NCBI RefSeq assembly: GCF_000735135.1
Contig: NZ_JPLZ01000006.1
Span: 1,364,001-1,428,000, forward strand
Direction of reading: 5' to 3'
Length of the DNA stretch: 64,000 nt
From: Chryseobacterium sp. FH1
GTDB taxonomy: Bacteria > Bacteroidota > Bacteroidia > Flavobacteriales > Weeksellaceae
Part shown: in pieces, positions 7,736 to 15,951 of the stretch
Position numbering within the stretch: the stretch's first letter is position 1
Layout: every line of letters begins with the position of its first letter
Notes under the pieces: generated by a model
Told to the model about the DNA's origin: nothing
The model's input: the letters and a program-made list of their open reading frames with translations, nothing else
Databases searched by the model: none
Translations under genes and position numbers: made by a program

Positions 7736-8671
7736 ATGAACAGAATCACACAGCTTTTCAACATCAAATATCCAATCATCCAAGGTGGAATGATTTGGCA
7801 TTCGGGATGGAAGTTGGCTTCTGCGGTTTCTAATAATGGCGGATTAGGATTGATTGGTTCGGCAAGTATGTATCCAGATATTTTGCGTGAGAATATTCAG
7901 AAATGTAAACAGGCAACGGACAAACCATTCGGTGTCAACGTTGCTTTGCTGTATCCAAATATTGATGAAATCATCAATATCATTCTGGAAGAAGGCGTAA
8001 AAATCGTTTTCACATCAGCAGGAAATCCCAAAACATACACCGAAACTTTGAAGAAAGAAGGCATCAAGGTTGCTCACGTGGTGGCGAGTTCCAAATTTGC
8101 AGTGAAATGTCAAGATGCAGGCGTAGATTCGGTTGTAGCAGAGGGTTTCGAAGCGGGCGGACACAACGGTCGTGAAGAAACAACAACACTTTGCCTGATC
8201 CCAAATGTCAAAAAACACATTGATATTCCATTAATTGCAGCGGGCGGAATTGGACTTGGAAGTCAGATGAAAGCAGCGATGATTCTTGGTGCAGATGGCG
8301 TTCAAATTGGTTCTCGTTTTGCAGCGACAGTTGAAGCAAGCTCTCACGAGAATTTCAAGAATAAAATTGTTGAACTAAAAGAAGGCGACACGCAATTGAC
8401 ATTGAAGGAATTAGCACCAGTTAGATTAATTAAAAATAAATTCTACCACGATTTGGAAAACCTTTACGAATCTGGCAGAAATGTTGAAGCGTTGAAAGAA
8501 ACTTTGGGAAGAGCACGCGCAAAGCTTGGAATGTTCGAGGGCGATCTCACGGAAGGCGAATTGGAAATCGGACAAGTCTCTGCTTTGATTGATGAGATCC
8601 TTCCTGTAGAAAAAGTCTTTCAAAATTTAATTAAAGAATTCAATGAAGCGAAAGTAGATTTGACTTTATAA
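7736..8671 (+). CDS. NAD(P)H-dependent flavin oxidoreductase / nitronate monooxygenase family
   Basis: A TIM-barrel FMN protein of the 2-nitropropane dioxygenase/FabK-like family, 311 residues from the ATG at 7736. The conserved start MNRITQLFNIKYPIIQGGMIW is followed by GGLGLIGSAS, a glycine-rich VVAEGFEAGGHNGREE (FMN and catalytic histidine region), and phosphate-binding AAGGIGLGSQMKAAMILGADGVQIGSRF. An upstream in-frame ATG at 7688 would add 16 residues. The shorter form is preferred because family members begin at this point and because 7688 lies only 15 nt after the -7-like box. It oxidises nitronates or reduces an unknown acceptor; the true substrate cannot be read from sequence. Confidence 0.88.
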   Translation: MNRITQLFNIKYPIIQGGMIWHSGWKLASAVSNNGGLGLIGSASMYPDILRENIQKCKQATDKPFGVNVALLYPNIDEIINIILEEGVKIVFTSAGNPKTYTETLKKEGIKVAHVVASSKFAVKCQDAGVDSVVAEGFEAGGHNGREETTTLCLIPNVKKHIDIPLIAAGGIGLGSQMKAAMILGADGVQIGSRFAATVEASSHENFKNKIVELKEGDTQLTLKELAPVRLIKNKFYHDLENLYESGRNVEALKETLGRARAKLGMFEGDLTEGELEIGQVSALIDEILPVEKVFQNLIKEFNEAKVDLTL

Positions 8672-8716
8672 GAAATAAGAAGAGGCAAAAGAGTCAAGGA
8701 AAAATTATTTAAAAAG

Positions 8717-8770
8717 GCTTCGAGAGCCTCAGCCTGACAACAATGGAATGCTTCGAGAGTCTCAGCCTGA
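8717..8770. repeat. Dispersed GCTTCGAGAG(C/T)CTCAGCCTGA repeat, two copies
   Basis: Two direct copies at about 8717-8739 and 8750-8770. The same motif, often inverted, occurs in this window near 17995, 18075, 26022, 37178, 37226, 45115 and 45222, always between genes. Confidence 0.8.
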
Positions 8771-8825
8771 AAAAGTCAAATTTCTCTTTTCAATTATATC
8801 AATTATTATTCATCAATTATCATTT

Positions 8826-9254
8826 ATGTTTTCGAAGCAAGAAGCTCAACAACTAAAAACGGAATTCTGGACAGCTTTCGGAAAAGCTTTTCCAAGGAAA
8901 TGGTTGTTATACGATACCAAGATCAAGGATTTTTCTTTCAAATTTTCTGCTGATAACAAAAAAGCGGAGGTGTCGATTGATATTGAAATGAAAGATGAAC
9001 TCTTCAGAAATGCCTACTTCGAGAAGTTTCAGTCTTTGGAAAATCTGTTGAAAGATGAGATCGGCGAATTCCAGATGGATGAGTTTTACACTTTAGAAAA
9101 CGGAAAAGTCATCAGCAGAATTTGGGTGGAAAAACACAATGTTAGTATTTTTAATAAGCAAACCTGGCCAGATACTTTCGAATTTTTTGTCTTGAAAATG
9201 AACGCTTTCGAAATGTTTTATTATGAATACGAGGATTTCATCAAGTCAGTTTAA
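8826..9254 (+). CDS. DUF4268 family protein
   Basis: 142 residues from the ATG at 8826. The open frame runs back through a dispersed repeat to 8748, which cannot be coding. The sequence matches the DUF4268 pattern: QQLKTEFWTAFGKAF near the start, FKFSADNKKAEVSIDIEMKD in the middle, and an aromatic C-terminus (FFVLKMNAFEMFYYEYEDFIKSV). The family is linked in other genomes to restriction or nucleic-acid-related proteins, but this stand-alone copy has no such neighbour, so no role is assigned. A small hypothetical gene follows 46 nt downstream on the same strand. Confidence 0.8.
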   Translation: MFSKQEAQQLKTEFWTAFGKAFPRKWLLYDTKIKDFSFKFSADNKKAEVSIDIEMKDELFRNAYFEKFQSLENLLKDEIGEFQMDEFYTLENGKVISRIWVEKHNVSIFNKQTWPDTFEFFVLKMNAFEMFYYEYEDFIKSV

Positions 9255-9300
9255 ATAAAGATAAATTATACTTTTTACAGTCTACATTATACAATTAACA

Positions 9301-9537
9301 ATGAAAAAAATTACAATAAAAGCCAACGATTTCTTCGAACTACTCAAACTGAAAGGCGAATCCATGTGGGATATTTTTGCACAATTAATTGATGATGAGG
9401 AAAAAGAAATCACTTTCGTAAATGATAAGGACGAATATCTTTTTCATTATATTTTACCAACCACTTTGGAGAAGCTTAAGGAAGATAAAGAGCTTTTCTC
9501 CAAGGAATACGCCGATAAATTGTCAGGACTTAACTAG
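9301..9537 (+). CDS. Small hypothetical protein (78 aa)
   Basis: Starts MKKITIKANDFFELLKLKGESMWDIFAQLI and is acidic and lysine-rich, with no signal peptide or membrane segment. I do not recognise a family. Its position 46 nt after the DUF4268 gene on the same strand suggests co-transcription. Its stop (9535-9537) overlaps the stop of the convergent pnuC gene by 8 bp, so no terminator fits between them. Confidence 0.6.
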   Translation: MKKITIKANDFFELLKLKGESMWDIFAQLIDDEEKEITFVNDKDEYLFHYILPTTLEKLKEDKELFSKEYADKLSGLN

Positions 9538-10192
9538 CATTCAAACCTTTCTTCCATTCCAAGTAACCGATAATTGCCATCGCTGTGAAGATAACGTATT
9601 GAATTGCTGTAATTCCCAAACCTTTGTAAAGCATCATCGGAATACAGATAAAATCGGCAACAATCCAGAAAATCCAATTCTCGATATTTCGTTTTGCCAT
9701 AAAAAACATGCCGACCAAAAATAGGGAAGTGGTGATGATGTCGGTATAATTGGCCCAATCCAAATGGTAAAGTCCCAGCCTCACGCCATTCATAGAAAAT
9801 TGATTGTCAATATAAGGTTTGAAATAATAAACCAATCCAACGAAAATCAAACTCCCCACAAACAAAGCACTTCCAATCTTCCAATCTTTTTTGCTGGCTT
9901 TTTTCACCTCCACATGGATGTTGTCATCCGAACTTTTCGACCAGAGAATCCAGCCGTAAACGCTCATCACGGTGTAATAAACATTAATGAGCATATCGCC
10001 CAACAATCCGAAAACGTACATAATGTAAATGAACAAAACCGTGGAGATGATTCCGGTAGGATAGACCCAAATGTTTTTTTTGATAGAAAAGAAAACGCTT
10101 AAGATTCCGAAGACTACCGCAATGACTTCAAAATAGATAAGGTAAGTTTCGTAAGAATTGTATTGTGCGGTGAGGGTTTCCAGAAAATTCAT
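9530..10192 (-). CDS. pnuC: Nicotinamide riboside transporter PnuC
   Basis: A membrane protein of about 220 residues with roughly seven hydrophobic segments and the PnuC signatures. These are WVYPTGIISTVLFIYIM, NVYYTVMSVYGWILW with its conserved asparagine and tryptophans, and FFMAKRNIENWIFWIVAD. It imports nicotinamide riboside for NAD synthesis by facilitated diffusion, usually trapped by a kinase (not in this window). The ATG at 10192 (MNFLETLTAQYNSYE) is chosen. A TTG at 10219 would add nine residues but lies beside the hairpin that ends the upstream gene. I see no riboswitch-like leader in front of it. Confidence 0.9.
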   Translation of the reverse strand: MNFLETLTAQYNSYETYLIYFEVIAVVFGILSVFFSIKKNIWVYPTGIISTVLFIYIMYVFGLLGDMLINVYYTVMSVYGWILWSKSSDDNIHVEVKKASKKDWKIGSALFVGSLIFVGLVYYFKPYIDNQFSMNGVRLGLYHLDWANYTDIITTSLFLVGMFFMAKRNIENWIFWIVADFICIPMMLYKGLGITAIQYVIFTAMAIIGYLEWKKGLNAS

Positions 10193-10223
10193 AGACTCAA
10201 AGATAGTGATGTTTTCCAAAATA

Positions 10224-10258
10224 AAACCCTGTCAAAGTTCAAAACTTTGACAGGGTTT
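10224..10258 (-). terminator. Terminator of the T9SS leucine-rich protein gene
   Basis: A 16-bp perfect stem (10224-10239 with 10243-10258) with a 3-nt loop. On the minus strand it is followed by TTTTATTTT. It lies 26 nt after the stop of the 972-residue protein gene and just before pnuC. Confidence 0.85.
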
Positions 10259-10284
10259 AGGAAAGAATGTTTTAGGAACTTGGA

Positions 10285-13203
10285 TTATTCTTTTACAAGT
10301 TTCTTGGTTATAGTATTACCCGCTTTTGTGGTTGCTGTGATGATGTAAGTTCCTTTTTCCAATGTTGCAACATTTACAGATTTTGCAGAAGCTGGAGCTT
10401 GTTTTACAGTTCTTCCAGAAATATCAGAAATTTTAATACTAGAAACTTCTTCGGAGAAATTAAGAATATCTTTTACGGGATTTGGATATAATACTAATTC
10501 GGATTTGCTGGTTTGAAATACTGCAAGATGATTATTACATAATGTATTGTAACTAGCGGTATTATCTTTCATCCATCCACTATAAGAATTTGCATTTGTG
10601 ACATTATCTACTTGGATACAAGTAAGACTTGGATTCTCATTTGTCCACATTGTTGCCAAGATATTGTTATTGTTATTCTTCAAGTTTAGGCTTGTAAGCA
10701 GATTTTCGCGACAGTTAAGATGTGTCAACAATGTGTTTTTACTAATGTCTAGATTAGGTAGTCGATTAGTTCTACATCTTAGATCAGTCAAAACAATGTT
10801 CTTACTTATGTCAAGATTTGTTATTAAGTTTTCACTACAATCCAAGTAAGTTAATAAAGTATTTTTGCTAATATCCAAACTTAGTATTTGATTGAATTGA
10901 CATTCTAGTTTTGTAATTTTCACAAAAGCTTCAATACCGACCATTCTTGCTATATTTTTACTACTAGCATTAATATCTCCTGTAAAAGCTTCAGCTTCGG
11001 AAACTTGTATCTCAGTATCTCCATTGGTATTGATTGCAGTATTGCTTACAAGATAAGCTTTAAAGTTGGTATCTGGGATATAAACAATTGGATCAGGATT
11101 ACAATTGGTGTTATAACTTGCAGTAGCATCTTTTGTCCAACCAGTATGAACTACTGTTGCATTATCTACTTGGATACAAGTAAGATTGGGGTTATTGGTT
11201 GCATTCATTGTTGTGATTGCAGAATTGTTACCGTTTTTAAGATTAAGACTTATTAATTTATTGGTATTAAGAAATACACTTTTCAACGCTGTATTTGAGC
11301 TTAAATCCAAAGTAGTCAATTGATTGGAGTGACAGCTTAAAATAGTTAATGCTATATTTTGACTCACATCCAAATTTGTTAGTTTATTATCAGCACAATT
11401 TAACCACGTAATTTTTGTAAATGCCTCTATTCCTACAAGGCTACTTATTGATTTTGAAAAGCACACAATATCTCCTGTGAACGATTCTGCTTCAGACACT
11501 TGTATCTCTGCATCACCATTAGTATTGATAGTGGCAACGCTTAAAAGATAAGCTTTGAAATTAGCATCTGGGATATTTACAATTGGAGTAGAAGTACAAT
11601 TGGTGTTATAGCTTGCTGTTGCATCTTTTTTCCAGTCGCCAGCTGTTGTGTAAGAATTGGCATTGGCAACATTATCTACTTGTATGCAAGTAAGGCTTGA
11701 ATTGAAATCTGCATACATTTTTGTTAATATAGTATTATTGCCATTTTTAATATTTAAACTTGTAAGTTGAGAGTTATTATTACAAGCAAAATCAGTCAAA
11801 GTAGTGTTCGAGCTTACATCTAAAGAAGTTAATAAATTGTTTCCGGTCCATAGCGTTGTCAAATTTGTATTTTTGCTCACATCTACACTTGTTAATTGAT
11901 TCCCACCACAATCTAGTTTTGTAATTTTTGTGAAGGCCTCAACCCCAGTAAGGTCAGAAATATTTTTATATTGACATAATATTTCTCCAGCAAAATCTTC
12001 TGCTTCTGAAACTTGTATTTCATTATCGCCGTTAGTATTAATAACTGTGTTTCCTACGAGATAAGCTTTAAAGTTTGCGTCCGGGATGTTTACAACTTGG
12101 TCACAAGAAATAACCTGAAGGGTTCCTATGACAGTGTTCCCGGCAATATTGTAGGTTATGTTATGATTCCCGATACCACCAGCAATCATCGTATTGAAGC
12201 TAAAAGTTTTTCCATCGCCATTATCTGTGACTCCAAGTCCGCTATAAACCCCGCCTACTGGAGAGGCACCTCCCAAATTTTGAGTTGTAATGTTAGAGCA
12301 AACTGGTGGAATGTTGGGGAAGGCTGGCTGGTTTATTGTTAATTTTGAAACTTTACCTCCCGCGTATTCGGCAAAATATAAATCAAGACCATTGAATGCG
12401 GATAGCGATGGCTCTTGCAAACCCGAAGCCATTGTTTCTAAAGAAGAGTTTGCATTGCTGATATCTTTTCTTTTGATGGTGGTACCTGTGGCTTCGGAAA
12501 TATAAAGAAAGTTTCCGTTGAACATGATGCCATCAGGTCCTCGCAAACCACTTGCGACCGAGGTTATAGAAGGATTGGGTTGGTTTAGATTAATTTTTTT
12601 TACTTCTGTTCCATAGAAGTAACTGAAATACAATTCATCCCCTTTGATGGCCATTCCGGAGCAAGGGTTGTTTGTGATAATTGAGGTTGCTGCCTGAGGG
12701 AAAGCCTGGTCAAGTCTCACCTTGTAAATGCCAGCTTGATTTGAGAGTGTTGATGATGAGCTGATGTACAAATCATTGCCATTCTGAACAAAGGCTTGTG
12801 TTATAAATGTGCTATTAAGATTTGTGGTGATAGGTTCGATTGTGGGGTTGCTTGATTCAATATTGATTCTGCCCACAGAAGTATTGTGACCAGGTAAGTT
12901 TTCTTCTGAAGCAATATACAAATAGTTGTTGATGATATACAGCCCAGTAGTTCTGTTGATGTTGTTTAAGATTGTGGTTACTGGAGCGGGAAGTGGTTGG
13001 GATATGTCTATTTTAGAAACCTTACCAGCACCATATTCGCTTATAAACAATGTATTGTCTTTTATAGCTAATCCTAATGGTTGATTTAAGCCAGAAGCAA
13101 CTGTGGTTATCGTCTGTGCAGATAATTTAAATGATAACAAAAATATAATAACGAAAAAAGATTTCCATCTTGTCTTTGTGGAAAAGAAAATAGTTTTTTT
13201 CAT
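10285..13203 (-). CDS. T9SS-exported protein with beta-propeller and three leucine-rich modules
   Basis: 972 residues. A signal peptide (to about residue 29) is followed by propeller-type repeats at about 32-295 (ASGLNQPLGLAIKDNTLFISEYGAGKV is cut here at VASGLNQPLG and LFISEYGAGKVSKI). A linker with an SprB-like feel covers 300-366. Three modules follow at about 371-536, 541-701 and 706-889, each beginning IPDANFKAYL or IPDTNFKAYL. Each passes through internalin-like repeats (LDVSKNT, LDVSSNT) and ends TCIQVDN...ASYNTNC. Residues 899-972 are a type A T9SS sorting domain (LVLYPNPVKDILNF...KKLVKE). It should be secreted or surface-anchored through type IX secretion, with adhesive or ligand-binding potential. 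The LytTR two-component genes are directly upstream on the same strand, with a shared promoter motif. Confidence 0.88.
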   Translation of the reverse strand: MKKTIFFSTKTRWKSFFVIIFLLSFKLSAQTITTVASGLNQPLGLAIKDNTLFISEYGAGKVSKIDISQPLPAPVTTILNNINRTTGLYIINNYLYIASEENLPGHNTSVGRINIESSNPTIEPITTNLNSTFITQAFVQNGNDLYISSSSTLSNQAGIYKVRLDQAFPQAATSIITNNPCSGMAIKGDELYFSYFYGTEVKKINLNQPNPSITSVASGLRGPDGIMFNGNFLYISEATGTTIKRKDISNANSSLETMASGLQEPSLSAFNGLDLYFAEYAGGKVSKLTINQPAFPNIPPVCSNITTQNLGGASPVGGVYSGLGVTDNGDGKTFSFNTMIAGGIGNHNITYNIAGNTVIGTLQVISCDQVVNIPDANFKAYLVGNTVINTNGDNEIQVSEAEDFAGEILCQYKNISDLTGVEAFTKITKLDCGGNQLTSVDVSKNTNLTTLWTGNNLLTSLDVSSNTTLTDFACNNNSQLTSLNIKNGNNTILTKMYADFNSSLTCIQVDNVANANSYTTAGDWKKDATASYNTNCTSTPIVNIPDANFKAYLLSVATINTNGDAEIQVSEAESFTGDIVCFSKSISSLVGIEAFTKITWLNCADNKLTNLDVSQNIALTILSCHSNQLTTLDLSSNTALKSVFLNTNKLISLNLKNGNNSAITTMNATNNPNLTCIQVDNATVVHTGWTKDATASYNTNCNPDPIVYIPDTNFKAYLVSNTAINTNGDTEIQVSEAEAFTGDINASSKNIARMVGIEAFVKITKLECQFNQILSLDISKNTLLTYLDCSENLITNLDISKNIVLTDLRCRTNRLPNLDISKNTLLTHLNCRENLLTSLNLKNNNNNILATMWTNENPSLTCIQVDNVTNANSYSGWMKDNTASYNTLCNNHLAVFQTSKSELVLYPNPVKDILNFSEEVSSIKISDISGRTVKQAPASAKSVNVATLEKGTYIITATTKAGNTITKKLVKE

Positions 13204-13264
13204 AGGAATTAGTTTTTTTGCCTACTCTGAAATCGCATTTTCGGCTTCCTGCGTTTTTATATCG

Positions 13265-13330
13265 CAAATATGGAAACCGTTTTATCTGTTTTGAAATTTC
13301 TGGGACAGAATGGCAAATTCTGGGATAGAA
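13265..13330 (-). promoter_or_regulatory. Putative LytTR-controlled promoter of the T9SS leucine-rich protein
   Basis: Written on the plus strand, direct repeats TGGGACAGAA (13301-13310) and TGGGATAGAA (13321-13330) are 20 bp apart. A -7-like box CATATTTG (minus strand, 13272-13265) lies 28 nt downstream of the nearer repeat. The same repeats, period and 28-nt distance occur before the histidine kinase gene at 15886-15951. Paired direct repeats just upstream of the -35 region are the usual form of LytTR sites. Confidence 0.7.
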
Positions 13331-13438
13331 AACAAAATGTATTTCGTTATTGGTGAAAATTATCAAAAAATAAAGCGTTCTGATAATAATATCAAAACGC
13401 TTAAATGTTTATTGATGTGAAAAATGTAAATTTTACAT

Positions 13439-14128
13439 CTAACGGATAAATTGCTTTACGTTATCCAAATAATTTTCAGAAACAGGAATCAAATTTCCTT
13501 TAATGATAATATTTCTATTGCTGAACTTTTCTATTTTATTCTTATTGATGATGTAGGCCCTATGGGTCTGTACGAAGGTGGATTCGGAAATTTCACTCAA
13601 GATTTTTTTGATGGTAGATCTGGATTTGTAAATTTTGTCATCGGTGTAAAGTAAAAGATAATTGCCGTCAGATTCTATATAGTTGATTTTTTCCTCGTCC
13701 AGTTTCACGCTGTACTCGCCCTCTTTTACATTTATAAAATGTTTCTGTTTTGGAAAATAGGCAGATTGCCGAATTGCGATTTCCATAGATGCAATCAAGT
13801 CGCTGTTTTTGAAAGGCTTCGTAAGGTAAGAATACGGCGAAGTGGAAACGGCCTTCCCAATGATTTCCTGATTTTCATAAGCCGTGAGATAGATAAACGG
13901 AATTTGATATTTTTCCTTTATTTTCAAGCCGAGCGAAATTCCATCCTGCTCATTTTCACCAAGATTGATGTCTAGAATGGCAAGCGTAATGCTTTCTTTT
14001 TGTAAGATTTCCAGAGCTTCTTTTGAGTTTTTAGCTTCACTCACGGCGTATCCATTTTCGGACAATATCTTTTTCGTAAATCGCCTGTTCAAAAAATCGT
14101 CTTCTACCAGTAAAATTGTCTTTTCCAT
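13439..14128 (-). CDS. LytTR-type response regulator
   Basis: 229 residues. The receiver domain (about 1-120) has the acidic pocket EDD at 9-11, phospho-acceptor Asp53 (LAILDINLG), Thr82 and Lys104 (YLTKPF). A LytTR DNA-binding domain follows at about 130-229, with the family signature INYIESDGNYLLLYT and FVQTHRAYIINKNKI. LytTR regulators bind paired direct repeats. Two matching pairs flank this locus, upstream of the kinase gene and of the exported leucine-rich protein. The gene starts 10 nt after the histidine kinase stop, so both are one transcript and a functional pair. Confidence 0.93.
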   Translation of the reverse strand: MEKTILLVEDDFLNRRFTKKILSENGYAVSEAKNSKEALEILQKESITLAILDINLGENEQDGISLGLKIKEKYQIPFIYLTAYENQEIIGKAVSTSPYSYLTKPFKNSDLIASMEIAIRQSAYFPKQKHFINVKEGEYSVKLDEEKINYIESDGNYLLLYTDDKIYKSRSTIKKILSEISESTFVQTHRAYIINKNKIEKFSNRNIIIKGNLIPVSENYLDNVKQFIR

Positions 14129-14138
14129 ATCACAATCG

Positions 14139-15857
14139 TTAAAAATAAAGCATCAATTCAAATCCATTCCCACTTGTTGTCATAATTTCGCCGTCCAGTT
14201 GATGGATCAGTCCTTTTGTAATCTCTAATCCCAGACCTTTGTCATTGTTTTTGTTGAAATCAAATCCATCACCGTTATCAGCATAATATAGTTTGCTTTT
14301 CCCGGATTTTTCATCCTCTGTGATTTCTATGTTGATGATTCCGATATTCCGATTTTTGAAAGCGTGTTTCATACTGTTGCTCAGAAGTTCTACGATGATC
14401 ATTCCCACGGGCAAAGCTTTTTCTATAGAAATAGTTTCGATTTCACATTTGATATGAAGATCGATTTTCTTTCTATGGTTGTCGTAAGATTCTTTCACGA
14501 TCTCAGAAAGCTCCGTGATGTACCTTCCAAAATCAATTTCATTCACATTGTCAGAAACATTCAGCTTCTTGTGGAGCAACGCCATAGAGTGGATTCTGTT
14601 CTGATTTCCTCTGATCAGTTCCTCGATGTTGTTATGGTCCGCAGACTCTTTCTGGATTTCTAAGATGCTGATGACGTGTTGTAGATTATTTTTTACCCTA
14701 TGTTGCAATTCCGAAAGCAAAACCTGTTTTTGCTCCAAAAGTTTCTGGAGTTCGCCAAGCTGTTCATTGATGATCTTGTTCCGATGGCTGATTTGCCTGT
14801 TTTTTCCCATCAATAAAAGCAGACCGATCGCGATAACCGCTAGCAAACTACCAATCAAAATCATCAATTTATCTTTATTCTTGATGGTGTTTTCCTTTTT
14901 ATCACTTTGATATTGCTCCTCCAGTTTTTTTATCTTGATTTTTTCTTCTTGGCTGGAGATAAGTTGCAGTTTTTCATGATATTCTTTATAATAAAACAAT
15001 GCAGAGTCTGTCTTGCCCATTCCTTCAAATATCATAGACCTCAATTTAAGATAGAAACCTTCATTTATTGTTGACTTATTAAAAAAAACACTAGCAGAAT
15101 CATTGTATGATAAAGCCACAGGATAGTTTTTCATTTTATAATTAACTACGCTGATATTATTAAACGCAGCCGCAATTTCACCAGATCGTTTTGTTTTTTT
15201 CTTATGCTTCAAAATCTTAAAATCATATTCGAGTGTTTTTTCATAATTCTTATTTTTAGAAGTATAAAATCCCATTAGGAGATAAGAATCTATCAAATCT
15301 TTTTCATTATTATATTTTTTCGAATATTTCTCGGCCTGTTTTGCATAATGGTTCATAGAATCCAGCTTCTCCACAAAACGAAAGTACGAGCTTCTCCGGA
15401 TGCAATATGTGCTGTACAGATTTTCAAGTTGATGATCCTTATATTTCTTGTAAGCTTTATCGAGATATAAGTCCGTCAATTCCAGATGTTGTGATTTTTC
15501 ATACGCCAAAGCAATCAACAGATAGATTTGATAAGAAAGAGCGTGCAGATTTTCATCTTCCGCATCATCGATTATCTTTAGCAAAATCTTCAAAGATTCT
15601 ACAGAAGTCGCTTCGTTTTCATCAAATATAATGGCTCGCCTGAATTGAGTTTCTAAAAGCTGAGTCTTATTTCTTCTACCAATCTGGAATTTTCTCAACT
15701 GCTTGTACAAACTGTCCGTTTTCTTCTGAGCAAGGTCAATCTCCTTATCTCGGATGAGTTTATCGATTTTCATTAATTCCTGATTCACAGCAGAGTCTTG
15801 GGACATATAAAAATGACCACATAATATAGATAGGAAAAATAAAAAACGGACGATCAT
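14139..15857 (-). CDS. TPR-containing sensor histidine kinase
   Basis: 572 residues from the ATG at 15857; a TTG two codons earlier is also possible. A signal peptide (MIVRFLFFLSILCGHFYMSQ) leads to a periplasmic region of TPR-like helices (about 25-320). One membrane segment follows (about 330-351), then a coiled linker and a HisKA_2-type kinase core. The phospho-histidine is His386 in LSELQHRVKNNLQHV. The ATPase part has the N box VELLSNSMKHAF (Asn494), DNGDGF and GLGLEI. Sensing through periplasmic TPRs suggests a protein or peptide cue, which is inference. It heads the operon with the LytTR regulator and appears autoregulated through the repeat pair upstream. Confidence 0.92.
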   Translation of the reverse strand: MIVRFLFFLSILCGHFYMSQDSAVNQELMKIDKLIRDKEIDLAQKKTDSLYKQLRKFQIGRRNKTQLLETQFRRAIIFDENEATSVESLKILLKIIDDAEDENLHALSYQIYLLIALAYEKSQHLELTDLYLDKAYKKYKDHQLENLYSTYCIRRSSYFRFVEKLDSMNHYAKQAEKYSKKYNNEKDLIDSYLLMGFYTSKNKNYEKTLEYDFKILKHKKKTKRSGEIAAAFNNISVVNYKMKNYPVALSYNDSASVFFNKSTINEGFYLKLRSMIFEGMGKTDSALFYYKEYHEKLQLISSQEEKIKIKKLEEQYQSDKKENTIKNKDKLMILIGSLLAVIAIGLLLLMGKNRQISHRNKIINEQLGELQKLLEQKQVLLSELQHRVKNNLQHVISILEIQKESADHNNIEELIRGNQNRIHSMALLHKKLNVSDNVNEIDFGRYITELSEIVKESYDNHRKKIDLHIKCEIETISIEKALPVGMIIVELLSNSMKHAFKNRNIGIINIEITEDEKSGKSKLYYADNGDGFDFNKNNDKGLGLEITKGLIHQLDGEIMTTSGNGFELMLYF

Positions 15858-15885
15858 TTTCAAATGAAATAACTTTATCAGGTCT

Positions 15886-15951
15886 CAAATTTAGAAAAAG
15901 AGTTTATTTTAAAATAATTTTTGGGACAGAATGATGTTTTCTGGGACGGAA
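15886..15951 (-). promoter_or_regulatory. Putative autoregulated promoter of the kinase-LytTR operon
   Basis: Minus-strand -7 box TAAATTTG (15893-15886) is preceded, 28 nt upstream, by direct repeats TGGGACAGAA (15922-15931) and TGGGACGGAA (15942-15951, both written on the plus strand). Period and distance match those at 13265-13330 exactly. The predicted transcript starts near 15879. The amino acid permease gene starts divergently at 16101 and could also be affected. Confidence 0.72.

Follow-up and report, generated by a model that had tools for sequence, protein, structure and literature searches.

Two minus-strand genes of Chryseobacterium sp. FH1 are preceded by the same pair of direct repeats at the same distance from a promoter box, which raises the question of what regulator reads these repeats and what it controls. 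The genes lie in a 64,000-nucleotide stretch of contig NZ_JPLZ01000006.1 (positions 1,364,001 to 1,428,000; hereafter, the window); one encodes an exported protein (the cargo), and the other a sensor kinase that is followed by a response regulator with a LytTR domain. Inspection of the bare sequence (the sequence-only reading) had suggested a LytTR regulon. Having compared, at the sequence level, the sites, their spacing, co-occurrence and local range, the exchange of cargo and the leader, we consider it highly probable that the LytTR regulator, whose gene lies between the two promoters, has its operator in the paired repeats; it would activate a local module with feedback and exchangeable cargo. 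The predicted operator has a rigid geometry and is recognisable phylum-wide.

Geometry of the paired repeat in the window

The unit TTC(T/C)(A/G)TCCC is present twice, with a 20-bp period, at each promoter, the minus-strand reading being TTCTATCCC-N11-TTCTGTCCC at the cargo promoter (13302-13330) and TTCCGTCCC-N11-TTCTGTCCC at the kinase promoter (15923-15951). The proximal half-site is followed by one base (A) and then by exactly 28 nt up to a -7 box (CATATTTG and TAAATTTG, respectively; the Bacteroidota consensus is TAnnTTTG), so that both the period and the spacing described in the sequence-only reading, which had placed the pairs at 13301-13330 and 15922-15951, are confirmed. The number of matches to the repeat pair expected from shuffled windows is 0. 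A scan of the whole 4-Mb genome, which that reading had proposed, detects the pair (up to two mismatches) at three places, namely the two window sites and C6:660491-660520, the latter located about 100 bp behind a LytTR gene fragment that is 70% identical to the LytTR domain of the window regulator; the reversed pattern gives 0 matches in the same genome. The third site belongs to a decayed duplicate of the module (L036, G000:C6:652000-668000, positions 8100-12200), in which the LytTR fragment, the repeat pair and a broken -7 box are followed by an inserted C39-peptidase-like gene, another gene and a remnant of the ancestral-type cargo.

The presence of this duplicate, together with the similarity of the relatives' cargo promoters over approximately 200 bp, could be taken to mean that a single segment, propagated by duplication or a mobile element, gave rise to the promoter stretches, with the repeat as a functionless hitchhiker. 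However, the two window promoters have in common the repeats, the length of the 28-nt gap and the -7 box but not the intervening sequence, and in the phylum at large the gap can vary in part of its sequence whereas the half-sites and their spacing hold constant, which renders this explanation hardly credible.

The gene assignments made from the sequence alone are upheld by Pfam: the kinase contains HisKA_2 and ATPase domains, the regulator combines a receiver (REC) with a LytTR domain, and the cargo carries leucine-rich repeats (LRR) and a sorting domain of the type IX secretion system (T9SS). The description of the kinase as a tetratricopeptide repeat (TPR) protein is less secure, in that the sensor half of the window protein yields only a TPR_12 match below the cut-off (E 0.004), although the TPR match of an orthologue is clear (E 3.5e-11). 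The regulator has the hallmarks of LytTR-family response regulators, namely the receiver and LytTR domains, a phosphoacceptor Asp and a cognate kinase with a phosphoacceptor His; the two residues, regulator D53 and kinase H388 (SELQHRVKNN), are invariant across the aligned orthologues.

Co-occurrence with the kinase-LytTR pair and local range

Within the genus, the repeat pair is found in 3 of the 23 genomes, exactly those that have the regulator. Four of 320 genomes from the family encode the kinase (G000, G001, G009 and G317, the last of another genus and with 61% kinase identity), and all four possess the repeat pair, compared with a single convincing site in the 316 kinase-less genomes (Fisher p 1e-8, with shared ancestry ignored); the reversed pattern has no match in any of the 320. 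The single site, in G088 (L052 8495-8620), comprises the repeat pair, a -7 box and a decayed leader resembling the DUF805b RNA discussed below, with neither a cargo gene nor a kinase, and this orphan promoter is probably a relic of loss. A match in G260, with three mismatches and no GGGAY cores, was attributed to chance.

For the phylum Bacteroidota, genome contigs were scanned with the regulator alignment only, blind to the DNA sites, which yielded 22 orthologous loci at 53-74% identity, the next match down being at 35%; 58 lower-ranking, non-orthologous loci from the same scan served as controls. The pattern fixed in advance matches 16 of the 22 orthologous loci and 1 of the 58 controls (L134, three mismatches, taken as chance). 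When any base is allowed after TCCC and both cores are required, 21 of the 22 loci match versus none of the controls (p 2e-18; 27 sites seen and 0.05 expected), with 20 as the sole enriched period. A match at position 15445 of L070 was also taken as chance. The sequence of L080, the single orthologous locus that lacks the pair, stops some 2 kb upstream of the regulator gene. Of 37 sites, 30 have a TAnnTTTG box (at most one mismatch) at offset 28, no other offset accounts for more than three, and at 28 of the 37 there is no TTG in the -33 zone. The sites thus track the kinase-LytTR pair in the family and in the phylum alike, in support of a LytTR regulon, and the conservation in relatives on which the sequence-only reading had staked its case is indeed found, with both the period and the -7 spacing fixed.

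In whole-genome scans of 21 genomes, nearly all two-core sites (1-3 per genome) are at the kinase locus; the remainder are few, weak three-mismatch sites at chance level, and G357 has one extra two-mismatch site that adjoins the kinase locus. With convincing sites almost confined to the kinase-regulator locus, the predicted regulon is local. The sequence-only reading had the kinase controlling itself and one exported repeat protein. The controlled protein need not be a repeat protein, since other cargo can take its place (see below), and self-control through a dedicated site would apply to some loci only: the kinase has its own site in the window, G001, G009, L059, L063 and L064, and perhaps in L076 and L078, whereas in other loci a single promoter, that of the cargo, may suffice for all the genes in the run.

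Table 1. Genes and predicted regulatory elements of the module in the window
Feature	Positions	Strand	Evidence or remark
Exported cargo, 972 aa: signal peptide, propeller-like/LRR passenger, Por_Secre_tail sorting domain	10285..13203	-	signal peptide and propeller read by eye
DUF805b RNA (RF02914), 5' leader of the cargo	13219..13254	-	39.7 bits
-7 box CATATTTG, cargo promoter	13265..13272	-	1 mismatch to TAnnTTTG
Proximal LytTR half-site (predicted) TTCTGTCCC, cargo promoter	13302..13310	-	
Distal LytTR half-site (predicted) TTCTATCCC, cargo promoter	13322..13330	-	
REC-LytTR response regulator, 229 aa	13439..14128	-	Pfam Response_reg 1.9e-21, LytTR 3.4e-17
HisKA_2 sensor kinase, 574 aa: N-terminal signal peptide, TPR-like region, one membrane helix	14139..15863	-	signal peptide and membrane helix read by eye
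-7 box TAAATTTG, kinase-regulator operon	15886..15893	-	
Proximal LytTR half-site (predicted) TTCTGTCCC, kinase promoter	15923..15931	-	
Distal LytTR half-site (predicted) TTCCGTCCC, kinase promoter	15943..15951	-	

A predicted LytTR operator and its relatives

The binding, phosphorylation, activation (rather than repression) and feedback that we infer for the LytTR regulator would proceed as follows. The envelope kinase would phosphorylate the regulator, two molecules of which would occupy the half-sites TTCT(A/G)TCCC on the same face of the helix, separated by two turns and immediately upstream of the RNA polymerase, at a promoter that usually has no -33 element; transcription would begin from the -7 box. 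One promoter would drive the exported cargo, with an mRNA starting with the DUF805b RNA, and the other the kinase and the regulator, resulting in positive feedback through the kinase's own site or, alternatively, through read-through from the cargo promoter; the module would serve its own locus only. The lack of a -33 element at most of the promoters suggests activation. Repression by the regulator bound at the pair, with the binding lifted or altered by phosphorylation, would be compatible with the placement of the sites near the polymerase; however, the mostly missing -33 element and the rigid -7 spacing fit activation, and the characterised LytTR systems of similar layout activate (PMC6193735), so that repression seems improbable.

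A different dimeric regulator could also be envisaged that reads each unit as a small palindrome (TTCT-N5-AGAA), the LytTR gene being a mere neighbour, and some units, for example TTCTGTCCCAGAA, are imperfect palindromes. Yet, over the 37 sites, which had been chosen by their TCCC cores, conservation is strong in the left arm but does not extend to the matching right arm, most of the distal units being TTCTATCCCTAAA or similar; in the gene maps, it is the kinase-LytTR pair that accompanies the sites, with no other regulator gene seen to do so, and a different regulator is accordingly very unlikely.

Several observations weigh against the assignment of the sites to the LytTR regulator. The relaxation of the phylum-wide pattern came after the loci had been inspected, and a crude test finds a LytTR-like signature in only about 21 of the 58 controls, the rest encoding other receiver proteins. 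The G317 kinase has no site of its own, and in G009 the kinase frame is broken into pieces of 125 and 431 aa (L034 3181-4886) while both promoters keep their sites. Finally, the classical LytTR half-site consensus has a central GTT, and TTCT(A/G)TCCC contains no GTT on either strand. Because of this deviation, the claim of a LytTR operator rests on layout and linkage.

To our knowledge, LytTR regulators are common in Bacteroidota, with few defined operators known there. AgrCA functions in peptide quorum sensing, with a half-site and a kinase family unlike those of the window system; the yhjX target of the YpdAB system is a membrane transporter, and we know of no leader RNA or cargo exchange for YpdAB. 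The window system has two direct repeats about two turns apart (period 20) upstream of a promoter. The operators of the LytTR Regulatory Systems (LRS) are 9-bp direct repeats that are usually 12 bp apart, in a minority of cases 11 or 13, and are located about 10 bp upstream of the -35 element, with autoactivation and poor conservation of the repeat sequence; divergent repeats are on record for LytTR systems (PMC6193735). The streptococcal and other LRS (HdrRM, BrsRM; PMC6193735) resemble the system described here in the paired direct repeats just upstream of a promoter, in autoregulation and in a spacing that is kept though the sequence varies. In those systems, the LytTR regulator is paired with an inhibitory membrane protein, and the targets that have been studied concern bacteriocins and competence, in contrast to the HisKA_2 kinase, response regulator and adjoining exported cargo seen here; with such a kinase as the partner, the system is LRS-like in layout only and is not an LRS. 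In Escherichia coli, YpdB binds GGCATTTCAT twice with a period of 21, sequentially and cooperatively, and YpdAB/yhjX is similar in its kinase and REC-LytTR regulator, its two direct repeats and its few targets, whereas the half-site differs (PMC4847170). Dimers of AgrA from Staphylococcus aureus bind upstream of two promoters whose cores are suboptimal, a likeness in the core promoters (PMC4227749). The sequence-only reading had invoked binding just upstream of -35; period and placement do match the literature, but most of the sites are without a -33 element. The paired sites conform to the LytTR layout with a different half-site. A literature search found no paper on this regulon.

Leader RNA and exchangeable cargo

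The leader of the window cargo is a DUF805b RNA (Rfam RF02914; 39.7 bits versus the gathering threshold of 35.6). The cargo mRNA often starts with this element, some 76 nt beyond the sites. In 13 cargo promoters (the window, two relatives in the genus and 10 of the 22 loci), DUF805b follows the distal half-site at a distance of 74-90 nt; it is never located behind a kinase promoter, and it is absent from the 58 control loci. In 17 copies, a small, hand-chosen set, the hairpin and a pairing between the loop and the 3' part (GCC/GGC, with variants ACC/GGU and GCU/AGC) covary: with the loop pairing counted in, 97% of the cells are paired and 6 of 7 pairs are changed on both sides, whereas slid controls fail. 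The covarying loop-to-3' pairing suggests an H-type pseudoknot.

Reportedly, DUF805b was described by Weinberg in 2017; a literature search found no further paper that names it. The RNA is known only as a candidate cis-regulatory element, with no function assigned so far, and its recurrence behind a LytTR-type promoter, of which we know no earlier description, provides a recurrent regulatory setting. The idea that DUF805b always accompanies the operator was rejected: copies in the same genome lie inside other operons without the paired repeat (L139 5298 and 5748, L140 6565, L141 6076), and hence the element is not specific to the operator. One of these loci (L139 2554-8620) encodes a further kinase-LytTR pair with small genes behind it, and DUF805b, without the paired repeat, precedes each of the first two small genes; no direct repeats were found in the two stretches of this locus that were tried.

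Comparison with G009 and L059 reveals two conserved blocks in the window, one comprising the promoter, leader and signal peptide (73-74% identity) and the other the sorting domain with the 3' flank (82%). The roughly 2.6 kb between these blocks are unrelated. Among the 69 sorting domains of the genome, the closest to that of the window (75%) is in the broken G009-type cargo remnant at C6:663932, followed by one at 44%. Given the conserved flanks, the unrelated middle and the affinity of the tail to the G009-type remnant, the passenger was exchanged, with the promoter, leader, signal peptide and T9SS tail being kept; by this comparison, the exported cargo of the module is exchangeable inside a fixed regulatory socket. 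The cargo of other loci includes ricin-B or bulb-type lectins, beta/gamma crystallin, collagen-like lipoprotein, F5/8C plus AbfB, astacin plus lectin (in a second gene), and Recep_L/leucine-rich proteins with a T9SS tail. Glycan-binding domains are frequent among these, and our guess would be a role in surface interaction.

In the regulator tree, Flavobacteriaceae, Chitinophagaceae and Leadbetterellaceae are interleaved, with several strongly supported forks, and this mixing of families suggests horizontal spread, by which the module appears to have been disseminated. The exchangeable cargo, the leader RNA and the mixed regulator tree had no place in the sequence-only reading. It is possible, if somewhat doubtful, that the locus represents a horizontally spreading sense-and-deploy module controlled by its own envelope kinase and LytTR regulator, both dedicated to that locus. 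A fixed socket would then be formed by the promoter, the DUF805b leader, the signal peptide and, in many cases, the T9SS tail, and unrelated surface proteins (lectins, crystallins, collagen-like and leucine-rich proteins, peptidases) would be swapped into it by recombination in the conserved flanks.

In the same tree, a record named Cellulophaga (L072) groups tightly with Flectobacillus, and the organism name may be wrong. The leucine-rich T9SS cargo of L064 (5104-6084) occupies two separate reading frames, which may reflect gene decay or an error of sequencing. A Flavo-1 RNA (RF01705) is located behind the neighbouring amino acid permease gene (L034 1181-1259; L035 5210-5296).
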